Assembly: GCF_000020985.1 (NCBI RefSeq)
Contig: NC_011296.1
Location: forward strand, 1,168,001-1,232,000
Length of the DNA: 64,000 nt
Reading direction: 5' to 3'
Origin: Thermodesulfovibrio yellowstonii DSM 11347
GTDB lineage: Bacteria; Nitrospirota; Thermodesulfovibrionia; Thermodesulfovibrionales; Thermodesulfovibrionaceae
The first letter of the stretch is position 1. Every line of letters starts with the position of its first letter. Shown piece by piece: positions 41,501 through 47,029 of this stretch. A program made the position numbers and the translations under genes. Under the pieces are notes generated by a model, which was given only the letters and a program-made list of their open reading frames with translations, was not told the DNA's origin and ran no database searches.

Positions 41501-41884
41501 AAAGATAAAGACAAAGCCCATGTGTTTCCAATTGCAAAAGAGTTTATAGACCTTGGATTTACGATTATAGCTACACGTGGAACCGCAAAATATTTAATAG
41601 AACATGGCTTAAATGTAGAAATAGTTAACAAACTTCAGGAAGGAAGACCAAATGTCCTTGATTTAATCAAAAATAAACAGGTTAGCTTTATAATAAATAC
41701 AGTATTTGGCAAAAGAGCGCAAAGAGACTCCATGTACATAAGAAGAGGAGCATTGCATTACAAAATTCCTTACACAACAACTATTTCAGGAGCAAATGCT
41801 ATTGTTAAGGCTATAAGAAGACTAAAAGAAATGCCTTTAAAAATTAAATCTATTCAAGAATACCATAGGGAGGTGTCAGGGTGA
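38567..41884 (+). CDS. carB: Carbamoyl-phosphate synthase large subunit with insertion
   Basis: 1105 aa: two ATP-grasp halves (about 1-540 and 590-940) and a C-terminal MGS allosteric domain ([20 protein letters not shown]). Repeated [17 protein letters not shown] and [15 protein letters not shown] mark the two half starts. Between them, about 35 additional residues (about 550-585) include ALSLQP at 569-574, encoded by a short repeat shared with pyrC. It overlaps purH by 4 nt. Confidence 0.96.
40271..40288 (+). repeat. ALSLQP-coding short repeat in carB
   Basis: GCCTTAAGCCTTCAGCCT, in the linker between CarB halves; same reading frame as the pyrC copy. Confidence 0.6.
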
Positions 41885-43449
41885 TAAAAAGAGCATTAAT
41901 AAGTGTATCGGATAAAAGAGGTTTGGTGGATTTTGCAAAAGAGCTTGATAAATTGGGTGTTGAGATTCTTTCAACAGGTGGAACTGCAAAAACATTAAGA
42001 GATTCAGGAATTAAGGTAATAGATGTATCCCAGTATACGGGTTTCCCTGAAATTATGGATGGTAGAGTAAAAACTCTTCATCCTCTAATACATGGAGGAA
42101 TTCTTGCAAGAAGGGATAATAAAGAGGATATTGAGGCAATGGAAAGACTTGGAATAAAACCTATTGACATGGTGGTAGTTAATCTCTATCCCTTTGAGTC
42201 TGTTGCAAAAAAACATTTATCTCAAATTCTTCAACCTTCAGACCTCAACCTTCAGGCTTTCTTAGAAGAAGCTATTGAAAACATTGATATTGGTGGACCT
42301 ACACTTTTAAGAGCCTCGGCAAAAAACTATAAAGATGTAATTGTAATTGTTGATCCTGATGATTATTCTTCTATAATTGAAGATATTAAGAAAGGTAGCG
42401 TATCCATTGAAAAAAAATTTGAACTCGCAAAAAAAGTTTTTTCTCATACCGCAAGATATGATGCATTAATTGCAGATTATTTTGAAAAAATCAGTCCTTC
42501 AGGCTTTAAAAAAGATTGGACATTGCCTTTAAAGATGACAAGAACACTGAGATATGGAGAAAATCCTCATCAGAAAGCAGCACTTTATGCTCTCAATGAA
42601 AGCCCTTCTTTAATAGATGCAGATGTGCTTCAAGGAAAAGAGATGTCCTTCAACAACTATCTTGATACCCACTCTGCTGTTCTTCTGGCAACTGAATTCA
42701 GCGAGCCTGTATGCGTAATTGTAAAACACAATAATCCATGCGGGGTTGCCATAGGAGAAAATATTCATACTGCCTATAAAAAAGCCTTTGAATGTGATCC
42801 TGTAAGCGCATTCGGTGGAATAATTGCATTTAACAGAGTTGTTGATAAAGAAACAGCTTCGGAGATTATCAATACTTTTTATGAAGTAATTGTCGCACCA
42901 GATTTTGACAAAGATGCACTTGAGGTTTTTGAAACAAAGAAAAATCTCAGACTGTTGAGATTCCCCTCTCTATCTGATAAAATTCAACCGTCAGGATTTG
43001 ATCTGAAAAGAATTCTTGGAGGGTTTATAGTGCAGGAGTGGGATAAGGTTGATAATGAATTTTCTCAAGCAAAAGTGGTAACCAAAAGACAACCAACAGA
43101 TGAGGAATGGAAGGCTTTGAAGTTTGCATGGAAGGTTTGCAAACATATAAAATCAAATGCCGTAGTTTATGCTAAAGAAGACAGAACAGTAGGACTTGGC
43201 ATTGGTCAAACAAGCAGAGTATTTTCAGCAAAAATAGGTGCAATGCATGCATTAAGTTCGCTAAAGGGCACTGTTGTAGCATCTGATGGATTTTTCCCAT
43301 TCAGAGATAACATTGATGTTCTTGCTCAAAATGGAGTGACTTCTATTATTCAGCCAGGTGGTTCTGTTAGGGACCAGGAAGTAATAGATGCGGCAAATCA
43401 GTATAATATAGCTATGGTATTTACAGGAATAAGGCATTTCAGACATTAA
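41881..43449 (+). CDS. purH: Bifunctional AICAR transformylase/IMP cyclohydrolase
   Basis: 522 aa. MGS-like IMP cyclohydrolase domain (about 1-200) then AICARFT domain ([39 protein letters not shown]-like). It carries out the last two steps to IMP. GTG start with GGGAGG upstream. Residues about 108-125 contain [12 protein letters not shown], about 15 residues not expected between VNLYPFE and the [11 protein letters not shown] motif. Confidence 0.95.
42229..42258 (+). repeat. Related short repeat in purH
   Basis: CTTCAACCTTCAG at 42229-42241 is identical to the pyrC copy, and a second version CTCAACCTTCAGGCT follows at 42244-42258. Confidence 0.5.
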
Positions 43450-43450
43450 A

Positions 43451-44341
43451 ATGAGACCATTTAAAGAAATAAAGGCAAATTATTATTTTACAAAAGAAGA
43501 TGAAGCAAGACTTATAGAGCTTAAACCTCTTATGGAAAAAAGAGCTGAGAAAGTAGTAGGAGCTCTTTATCAATGGATCATTCAAACAGAGTCGGCAAAA
43601 AGAGTTTTTAAGAACGAATCATTAATAAAGCATGTAATGAGACTTGTAAGAACATGGTTTATAGCTCTTTTTTCAGGTAAATATGATAACTACTTTTATG
43701 ATTTTCTTATTAGAATTGGGCAAAGACATGAAAGAGTCGGAGTTGACCCTCATTTTATGACAAGAGCAATAAATATTATAAGAAATGCTTGTGTTGACAT
43801 ACTTTGCGAGGAAATAGAAAAAGACAGAGAAAAATATATAATTTCCATAAATAAAATACTTGATATAAATCTTGATATTATAACCTCCTCCTATCTTGAG
43901 GAAGAAATAAAAGGTTATTCCCCAGCCTATAGAATAAAAATCCAACTTGTAAGATACGGTGAAATATTTTCTCAGCTTGTAAGCCTTGTCCTTATAGTTG
44001 GATTAAGCATTCTTACTTTTGCTGTAATTTATCTTTGCGGAAAAGATATATATGAAATATTATCAGGTAAACTTGAACAGACAATTGTAACTGCCCTTGG
44101 TTCAGTACTTATTCTGTGGGTTATGCTTGAACTTTTAAATACTGAGATTGCCCATCTTAAGGGAGGAAAATTCAGAATAAGCGTTTTTGTTGGAGTTGCT
44201 CTTGTTACTGTAATAAGAGAGACTATGATAGCAACACTAAAACATGAAACAATTGATTTTATAATCTCACTTATAGCTGCCATTCTCATAATTGGTATAG
44301 TATACTGGTTGGTTAAAAGAACAGAGGAGGAAAAAAGATGA
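43451..44341 (+). CDS. Membrane-anchored protoglobin-PsiE fusion
   Basis: 296 aa. Residues 1-155 are a protoglobin/globin-sensor domain; proximal haem ligand His93 in IGQRHERVGVDP. Residues ~170-290 hold four transmembrane helices resembling the phosphate-starvation PsiE family. It probably senses O2, NO or CO at the membrane or scavenges it; there is no kinase or cyclase output domain. It lies between purH and purD: 1 nt after purH and a 4-nt ATGA overlap with purD, so co-transcribed with purine genes. Confidence 0.78.
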   Translation: MRPFKEIKANYYFTKEDEARLIELKPLMEKRAEKVVGALYQWIIQTESAKRVFKNESLIKHVMRLVRTWFIALFSGKYDNYFYDFLIRIGQRHERVGVDPHFMTRAINIIRNACVDILCEEIEKDREKYIISINKILDINLDIITSSYLEEEIKGYSPAYRIKIQLVRYGEIFSQLVSLVLIVGLSILTFAVIYLCGKDIYEILSGKLEQTIVTALGSVLILWVMLELLNTEIAHLKGGKFRISVFVGVALVTVIRETMIATLKHETIDFIISLIAAILIIGIVYWLVKRTEEEKR

Positions 44342-45603
44342 AAGTTCTTGTTATAGGTTCAGGAGGAAGAGAACATGCTATTGTATGGAAACTTGCTCAA
44401 TCAAAAGTGGTAGACAAAATTTATTGTGCTCCTGGAAATGCAGGAATTTCTGAAATTGCTGAATGTGTAGAAGTTGAAAGCAAGAATTTCTCTGCTCTTT
44501 TAGACTTTGTAAAATACGAATGGATTGATCTCACAGTTGTAGGACCGGAAGAGCCTCTTGCTAAAGGAATTGTTGATATATTTCAGAAAGAGGGAAGAAA
44601 AATAATAGGTCCTACAAAAGCTGGGGCACAAATTGAAAGCAGTAAAGTATTTGCAAAGGATTTCATGAAAAGACATAAAATTCCGACATCAGAATATAAA
44701 GTTTTCACATCTTATACACATGCAGAAGAATATATCAGGTTAAAAGGAACACCCATTGTAATCAAAGCAGATGGACTTGCTGCAGGCAAAGGAGTTTTTG
44801 TGTGCCAAAGTTATGACGAAGCGGTTGATGCTCTAAAACTAATTATGAAAGAAAAAGCTTTTGGCTCTGCTGGAGACAGAGTTGTAATTGAAGAGTGTCT
44901 TCAAGGTAAAGAAGTTTCCTATCTTGTTTTTACTGATGGCAAAACCATTATACCAATGGTTACATCTAAGGATCATAAAAGACTTTTAGATAACGATGAA
45001 GGTCCAAATACTGGCGGCATGGGAACATTCAGCCCTAACCCAATAATTACTCCAGAACTTGAATATGAAATTCTTGAAACTGTAATAAAGCCAACTATTA
45101 AAGGATTAAAGCAAGAAGGAATAGTTTACAAAGGAATTCTCTATGCAGGGCTTATGATTATTAACAACAAACCCTATGTGCTTGAATTTAACTGTAGATT
45201 TGGAGATCCTGAAACTCAGGTAATTCTTCCAAGACTTGAAACTGATATTATGGACATCTTTATGGCAATAGCAGAACAAAAATTAAATAAAGTAGATGTG
45301 AAATGGAAAAATGAAGCCTCTCTATGTGTTATTCTGGCATCAGAGGGATATCCAGGAAAGTATAAAAAAGGGATACCTATTTATGGACTTGAAATGTTCA
45401 AAGGATTAAAGGATATTACAGTATTTCATGCAGGCACTAAATTTGATGATGATGGAAAAATTGTAACTAATGGCGGAAGAGTTTTAGGAATAACGGCTTT
45501 GGGCAAAGATATAAAAGAAGCAAGGCAAAAAGCGTACTCTGCTGTTGAGTTTATAAAATTTGAAGGAATGCAATATAGAAAAGACATTGGATTGAATCTT
45601 TAA
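44338..45603 (+). CDS. purD: Phosphoribosylamine-glycine ligase
   Basis: 421 aa ATP-grasp ligase. N-terminal GSGGREHAIVWKLAQS, core ADGLAAGKGVFVC (about 143) and FNCRFGDPETQVILPRL (about 280). It joins glycine to phosphoribosylamine, the product of PurF. GGAGG precedes the ATG, which overlaps the protoglobin gene. Confidence 0.96.
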   Translation: MKVLVIGSGGREHAIVWKLAQSKVVDKIYCAPGNAGISEIAECVEVESKNFSALLDFVKYEWIDLTVVGPEEPLAKGIVDIFQKEGRKIIGPTKAGAQIESSKVFAKDFMKRHKIPTSEYKVFTSYTHAEEYIRLKGTPIVIKADGLAAGKGVFVCQSYDEAVDALKLIMKEKAFGSAGDRVVIEECLQGKEVSYLVFTDGKTIIPMVTSKDHKRLLDNDEGPNTGGMGTFSPNPIITPELEYEILETVIKPTIKGLKQEGIVYKGILYAGLMIINNKPYVLEFNCRFGDPETQVILPRLETDIMDIFMAIAEQKLNKVDVKWKNEASLCVILASEGYPGKYKKGIPIYGLEMFKGLKDITVFHAGTKFDDDGKIVTNGGRVLGITALGKDIKEARQKAYSAVEFIKFEGMQYRKDIGLNL

Positions 45604-45625: not shown

Positions 45626-45706
45626 GCGAGAGTGGCGGAATGGCAGACGCGCTGGACTTAGAATCCAGTGGGGAGACCCGTGAGGGTTCAAATCCCTCCT
45701 CTCGCA
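45626..45706 (+). tRNA. tRNA-Leu(TAG)
   Basis: 81-nt class II tRNA: acceptor GCGAGAG/CTCTCGC, anticodon stem CTGGA/TCCAG with loop CTTAGAA (anticodon TAG), long variable arm, discriminator A. CCA is not encoded. Its 3' end overlaps the histidine-kinase gene end on the opposite strand by 19 nt. Confidence 0.93.
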
Positions 45707-47029
45707 TTTGAGTTTTCTTGCAGGATTTCAAAAACAGGGAAATATATTTCAAAAGTTGTGCCTTTTTGCAGTTCACTATAGACATTTATATAGCCATTAT
45801 GTTGTTGGACTATATTGTATACAACCGATAAACCAAGTCCTGTTCCTTTATCTCCCTTTGTTGTAAAAAATGGTTCAAATATTCTCTGTTTGACCTCTTC
45901 ATCCATACCATGACCTGTATCACTAATTGAAAGTAGCACATACCTACCTGGTTTACCATAGCCATGTGTATTAACGAATGTTTCATCAATTTCTATTAAT
46001 GATGTTGATATCTTTAAAATCCCACCTTCTGGCATAGCGTCTTTCGCATTAGTTACAAGATTCATTATTACCTGTTCAATCAAGTTTTTATCAGCAAAAA
46101 TTTGAATAGTGCCAACATTTAAATCTGTTATTATTTTAATATCCTTTCGCAGAATAGGATGAATAAATTCTAAAAAATCTTTCAGTAAATCATCCAAATA
46201 CAAAGGTTTAAATTCAGTAGTATCTTTTCTACTGAAAGAAAGAAGTCTTTTTATAAGCTCTTTTGCTTTCTCTGCGGATGAATGGATATGTTCAACATAA
46301 GGATACAAAGGATGATTTGCGCCAAGCTTAGATTCAACTAATCCTGAAAAACCTAAGATTGGAGTCAATAAATTATTAAAGTCATGAGCAATTCCATTGG
46401 CTAACAAAGCTGCTGCTTCTATCTTCTGCGCTTGAATTAATTGTTCCTCTGTTTTTTTTCTGTTTTGTAACATCTCTGATTAAAACCATAACCTTTGAAA
46501 CCTTATGATATTCATCAAATATGGGCACAGCTCTTATGTTGAAAATTGATCCTGAAAGATAAGTTATAGTTTCCTCTACAAGACAAACATTTTCAAAGGC
46601 TTTCTTTACAGGACATACTTCGCAGATAACATTTTTTTTATAAAAAATCTCATAACAGTGCATATTAATTCCTTCATGAATTTTTTTATCCAACAGTTTT
46701 TCAACTACTGTATTCATCCATAAAATTTTAAAATCCTGTGAAATAATAACAATGCCATCTGGTATTAATTGGATAAAGGAATTGAGCTCACTATAAAGTT
46801 CTTTTATTCTTCTCTGAGAGTTTATTAACTTCCACGTGTATCCCTTTATCAAGAAATAAAGTAATAATCCTGTGATAGAAACATAAAACCATCCTTTATA
46901 GGTCTGAAATTTGGTCAATTCAGAAACATCTTTGATAAAATATGAAAGTATCGTATCGGAAAATAGTATCCACATACTTCCAATAAACAGATAAATCAAA
47001 ACTATGCCTGAAATTCCTTTAATTATCAC
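45688..47029 (-). pseudogene. PAS-sensor histidine kinase with A8 frameshift
   Basis: Two TM helices (about 5-27, 44-63), a PAS domain (SFIQLIPDGIVIISQDF; Cys-rich CEVCP), HisKA with H-box AHDFNNLLTPI and HATPase (SDTGHGMDEEV; GTGLGLSVVY). The reading frame shifts at an A8 run (plus T8, 46452-46459): the N-part reads TKQKKNRG, while deleting one A gives TKQKKTEEQLIQAQKIEA and joins both halves. GTG start at 47029. No response regulator adjoins. Could be slippage, real inactivation or a sequencing error. The stop lies in tRNA-Leu. Confidence 0.82.

Follow-up and report, generated by a model that had tools for sequence, protein, structure and literature searches.

Between purH and purD, the window (the whole 64,000-nt stretch of Thermodesulfovibrio yellowstonii DNA analysed here) carries a gene whose product joins an N-terminal globin of the protoglobin/globin-coupled sensor (GCS) lineage to a C-terminal membrane domain of the PsiE family. 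Because this gene has long been kept between the pur genes and its relatives elsewhere often lie beside NO or nitrite reductase genes, the fusion is probably a membrane sensor of NO or O2 that borrows the purine operon. We hold with moderate confidence that it is membrane-anchored, uses the PsiE domain as its output and is co-expressed with purH and purD. A more far-reaching form of the idea, in which the haem globin signals through PsiE as a gas-gated module of transport or partner control and stays in the purine operon since gas exposure and nucleotide synthesis are linked, appears unlikely; if true, it would represent a new kind of membrane signalling through PsiE, a widespread membrane domain for which we know of no function.

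Architecture of the fusion protein

The gene, its domains and its immediate neighbours are as follows:

41881..43449, plus strand: purH, upstream neighbour, 1 nt away (NCBIfam PRK00881/TIGR00355)
43451..44341, plus strand: protoglobin/GCS-PsiE fusion gene, an ORF of 296 amino acids with intact orthologues in relatives
43463..43906, plus strand: globin sensor domain, residues 5-152 (Pfam Protoglobin, 94.8 bits against a cut-off of 25; model match 2w31_A)
43568..43570, plus strand: Tyr40 (B10 position) of the distal pocket, aligning to AfGcHK Tyr45
43646..43648, plus strand: Val66 (E11 position), where the Geobacter GCS has its sixth ligand, His66
43727..43729, plus strand: His93 (F8), predicted proximal haem ligand, invariant in 64/64 family members and aligned to the proximal His of 2w31, which bears the same number
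43892..43906, plus strand: junction Y148-L-E-E-E152, from the end of helix H towards TM1, conserved in the family and shared with 2w31
43979..44326, plus strand: PsiE-family four-helix membrane domain, residues 177-292 (Pfam PsiE, PF06146, 83 bits against a cut-off of 23.9; four model helices)
44129..44131, plus strand: Glu227 in TM2, Glu in 75/75 PsiE-type sequences and also in E. coli PsiE
44216..44218, plus strand: Arg256 in TM3, Arg in 75/75 PsiE-type sequences and also in E. coli PsiE
44338..45603, plus strand: purD, downstream neighbour, 4-nt overlap (NCBIfam TIGR00877)

The original prediction had placed a haem-ligand histidine, His93, in a protoglobin domain followed by four PsiE-like transmembrane (TM) helices, and both halves of that description are borne out by the Pfam scores, by the alignment of His93 and, for the membrane half, by four hydrophobic stretches in the sequence that correspond in number to the helices of the structure model. 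It had also noted the absence of a kinase, cyclase or methyl-accepting output, in agreement with a Pfam scan of the ORF in which no such domain rose above its cut-off (His_kinase reached 14.2 against 25.2 bits); nor did the domain scan return a DNA- or enzyme-binding domain. The gene is the only one of protoglobin type in the window's genome.

A structure model was calculated with AlphaFold2, as a monomer, from 59 family members. The globin is modelled confidently (block means 85-97 over residues 1-150), and the membrane part is helical and less certain, with a pLDDT of 77 when the PsiE part is modelled alone. The globin model superimposes on 2w31, the solved globin domain of the Geobacter sensor GsGCS, with a Z score of 23.1 and an rmsd of 1.3 over 149 residues, followed by the cyanobacterial globin domain 8h17, AfGcHK and HemAT; across GCS and protoglobin structures overall, Z ranges from 17 to 23. 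The family profile agrees with this ranking, matching 2w31 end to end over residues 1-160 with 172.8 bits, its junction SYREEE included, whereas the next-best solved structure, AfGcHK, reaches 74 bits; the Geobacter globin therefore belongs to the same subfamily as that of the window. With an N-terminal globin of the GCS/protoglobin lineage, a histidine at F8 and a non-globin domain at the C-terminus, the window protein has the make-up of a GCS, and its globin and Y-x-E-E-E junction place it in the GsGCS-type subfamily. The bis-His haem of GsGCS, held by His66 (E11) and His93 (F8), is not expected here, position 66 being valine.

The membrane half is assigned to PF06146 on its score, its four TM helices and its conserved Glu in TM2 and Arg in TM3, but it falls well short of the NCBIfam equivalog for the E. 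coli orthologue (NF002763; 21.1 versus 138 bits). Glu227 and Arg256 are invariant among the 75 PsiE-type sequences, stand-alone PsiE proteins included. The PsiE half is the better conserved of the two in 57 of 63 comparisons, and the TM2-TM3 region is the most conserved part of all, with a mean identity of 73% to the window protein. From the distribution of charges (positive-inside rule), both ends of the protein and the TM2-TM3 loop are predicted to be cytosolic. A search for a solved fold of the PsiE part gave a best Foldseek E value of 2.9, and a PDB profile search returned no match; weak matches to Orai channels and to helical bundles were discounted as fortuitous. As the PsiE part has no counterpart among solved structures, any mechanism for it is a guess.

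In the model, a helix runs from the end of the globin through the conserved junction into the first PsiE helix, and we propose the following sequence of events. The N-terminal globin would bind haem b, and capture of NO (or O2) by this haem would shift helix H within a GCS-type dimer. This shift would be passed through the Y-x-E-E-E junction to TM1 and the conserved cytosolic TM2-TM3 loop, where the Glu227/Arg256 site would change; the PsiE domain would then influence either membrane transport or a partner protein in the membrane.

Conservation within the globin bears on whether haem is bound at all. Besides His93, the residues Trp69, His101, Tyr11, Tyr148, Glu151 and Glu152 are invariant across the family and Glu150 nearly so, and the distal residues vary. 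Tyr occupies B10 in most of the window's genus and is replaced by Ser, Asn, His, Glu or Asp in other lineages. Across the window's genus the B10/E11 pair is mostly Tyr/Val; most of family f3 has His/Gln, family f19 Ser or Asn with Gln, and family f8 Glu/His66; family f22 combines Tyr at B10 with His62, and His66 is confined to f8, f11 and part of f12. Such variability might be expected of a degenerate or non-haem globin acting solely as a protein-protein module, like RsbR, but the proximal histidine never changes, and 2w31, the closest relative with a solved structure, is a globin whose haem is ligated by histidines, the sixth ligand being His66 at E11 (PMC4476040); we consider a non-haem module highly improbable. 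Since the distal pocket differs among lineages, the ligand need not be identical in all of them. The window pocket, with Tyr at B10, Val at E11 and no distal histidine, could also bind O2, for which the B10 tyrosine makes the window protein a possible candidate. The switching of distal residues over a fixed proximal histidine offers natural variants for the study of ligand tuning.

Position between purH and purD

The spacings given in the original prediction are exact: the purH stop at 43449 is separated by 1 nt from the start of the fusion ORF at 43451, and the fusion ORF, which ends with TGA at 44339-44341, shares its last 4 nt with purD, whose ATG is at 44338. Upstream of purH lie pyrC, carA and carB, as identified by reading their translations, so that the fusion gene sits in a row of pyrimidine and purine genes. 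A promoter and terminator scan of the operon gave counts no higher than those in shuffled sequences, and for this reason we do not claim an internal promoter. On the minus strand of the window at 45688-47029, two overlapping ORFs in different frames, one resembling the PAS half and the other the kinase half of a single membrane sensor histidine kinase, are likely a frameshifted gene.

The fusion is a real family, with 64 distinct full-length members in the phylum and full-length copies in about 50 genomes of the phylum sample. Conservation of both the fusion and its synteny, whose absence from relatives was to have counted against the original prediction, was found at two levels. Within the genus and family, purH-fusion-purD is intact in 16/16 genomes. 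An order-wide survey covered 149 genomes, 54 of them with a match, position being judged by contig distance to purD and from fetched stretches; the purH-purD locus holds the fusion in 40 of the 54, counting one member just before purH (G285) and one without the globin (G121), and this position spans at least six families. On a quick gene tree with SH-aLRT support only and some long branches, the pur position requires 3 changes compared with 20.7 in shuffles, and the position is therefore old and mostly inherited. Chance was ruled out as its explanation by the 16/16 genomes and the tree label test. A phage or plasmid origin and a role in defence were also dismissed: no relatives were found in phages, plasmids or viral contigs, and there was no PADLOC match to a defence system.

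Two variants of the locus were seen in passing. In G121 (family f3; L082:5155-5650, minus strand), approximately residues 23-173 are lost in frame, leaving the first globin residues attached directly to PsiE, so that the purH-purD slot encodes a 144-aa PsiE-type protein; this is one draft genome and may reflect an assembly fault. In some families (loci L066, L070, L071 and L072), the PurH upstream of the fusion is only about 200 amino acids long, comprising the MGS domain and the start of AICARFT, so the second activity has to come from a gene at another site or from a substitute.

Such a persistent address raises the question of whether the protein regulates purine synthesis, coupling O2 or NO to PurH/PurD activity or to expression of the operon, for instance by recruiting the enzymes to the membrane. 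That the gene is translationally coupled to both pur genes in the genus is in keeping with this, as is retention of the position in those six or more families even where the C-terminal part of PurH has been lost. However, many of the order's purH-purD pairs lack the fusion gene (those gaps that were read held no other convincing gene), 27 of the orthologues sampled are located elsewhere than at pur, often next to genes of NO or nitrite reduction, and the protein lacks a domain with which to bind DNA or enzymes. The suggestion in the original prediction of a link between O2 or NO and purine synthesis is thus not supported, and we judge a purine regulator quite improbable. Because many purH-purD operons do without the fusion and orthologues elsewhere adjoin other genes, it is not necessarily a purine device, and location between purH and purD does not by itself make it one. 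The slot is best understood as an expression address for the membrane sensor, one that would provide steady, growth-linked and translationally coupled expression.

Gene neighbourhoods away from the purine genes

The 27 orthologues outside the pur locus have neighbours of a different kind. NorB was recognised in six of these loci by similarity to the solved NorB of cNOR (E 4e-114), NrfHA in four (three of family f19 and one of f10), NirB in four (that of f22 matching TIGR02374 with 878 bits) and hemerythrin genes in three. At least one of NorB, NrfA, NirB and hemerythrin occurs in 14/27 of these loci as against 0/40 control purD loci (309 kb), although the 14 share ancestry and amount to about three independent events, in f19, f10 and f22. 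In 13/13 f19 loci (e.g., L050:882-2041), genes for a CBS-domain protein and an HPP membrane protein (Pfam names) lie beside or near the fusion; the window's genome has no HPP gene. In f22 the fusion is accompanied by genes for a universal-stress protein, a P-type ATPase, NirB and alanine dehydrogenase, the names of those not scanned coming from reading of the sequence.

From these neighbourhoods, NO or nitrite stress is a likelier signal across the family than O2. No NO, nitrite or hemerythrin genes were found near the pur-linked copies, that of the window included, within the stretches examined, and across the order, once the window's genus was set aside, carrying the fusion was not significantly associated with having a full NrfA (8/38 versus 14/95, p = 0.44). 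The window's genome does contain nrfHA with a divergent hcp, followed by a gene for a Crp/Fnr-type regulator (L175:3275-7724; G000:C1, about 197.3-201.7 kb); this is a locus of nitrosative stress and nitrite ammonification, about 1 Mb from the fusion gene.

The same neighbours would suit an enzyme rather than a sensor, that is, a globin held at the membrane that would clear NO or O2 as a dioxygenase or reductase, with PsiE as an anchor or electron conduit. Single-domain protoglobins bind O2, CO and NO, which lends this some credence. Nevertheless, the protein has no reductase domain or partner fused to it or conserved in its vicinity, GCS sensor domains are its best matches in fold, and a membrane half that is the better conserved and bears invariant charged residues is unlike a mere anchor. 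We therefore regard an enzymatic role as unlikely.

Another set of neighbours touches on the PsiE domain itself. In the window's genome, a gene for a stand-alone PsiE (L154:6141-6551; G000:C1, about 562.1-562.6 kb) is followed on the same strand, after 2 nt, by one for a P-type cation ATPase; this pairing recurs in relatives, a P-type ATPase adjoining stand-alone PsiE in 5/20 loci. Together with the P-type ATPase and universal-stress protein near the f22 fusion genes, it would fit a PsiE domain that works as an ion or small-molecule channel or as a pump modulator, gated by the haem globin and associated with the P-type cation ATPase. Apart from one case, however, no such gene is found near the pur-linked or f19 copies, and there is no solved structure akin to the PsiE fold that would back a pore; this too seems a doubtful account of the family. 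The reading of the fusion as a membrane gas sensor brings a readable input, the binding of gas to haem, to PsiE, making the roles of PsiE and of the Geobacter-type sensor testable in one protein.

Relation to known globin sensors and PsiE proteins

According to the original prediction, a haem gas sensor signalling through its TM region had not been described. The part of this concerning a haem-type globin fused to a PsiE-like membrane region, with no enzymatic output, stands; "not described" was too strong and only partly right, because the window globin shares its subfamily with the solved Geobacter GCS globin. A GCS with a membrane C-terminus is already known from Geobacter, its globin domain having been solved, and the full GsGCS is about 300 amino acids long, with a C-terminal TM domain that has not been given a function. 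We know of no output for this sensor. As far as the literature searched shows, most subscription papers being outside the search and the negative result accordingly weak, no globin-PsiE fusion has been named; what is apparently new is that the output is a PsiE domain, that the place in the purine operon is old, that NO/nitrite genes are neighbours in other lineages and that the distal pocket varies.

Among known systems, GsGCS (2w31) is closest, sharing the globin subfamily, a score of 98 bits to the window protein and the Y-x-E-E-E junction, and differing in its distal ligand, His66 at E11 in place of Val66. AfGcHK, HemAT and DosC/BpeGReg have the same GCS globin fold and proximal histidine, AfGcHK also the Tyr at B10, but their kinase, MCP or GGDEF outputs set these proteins apart from that of the window, which has none and lies outside that class. 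Archaeal protoglobins, such as Methanosarcina acetivorans Pgb (2veb), share the superfamily and fold with the window globin (Z 18), although they are soluble single-domain proteins of marginal sequence similarity. E. coli PsiE, in turn, is a stand-alone protein of 136 amino acids without a globin and is only weakly similar (15.8 bits to the family profile), yet it has the same four-TM domain as the window's PsiE half, with the same invariant Glu, Arg and final Trp.
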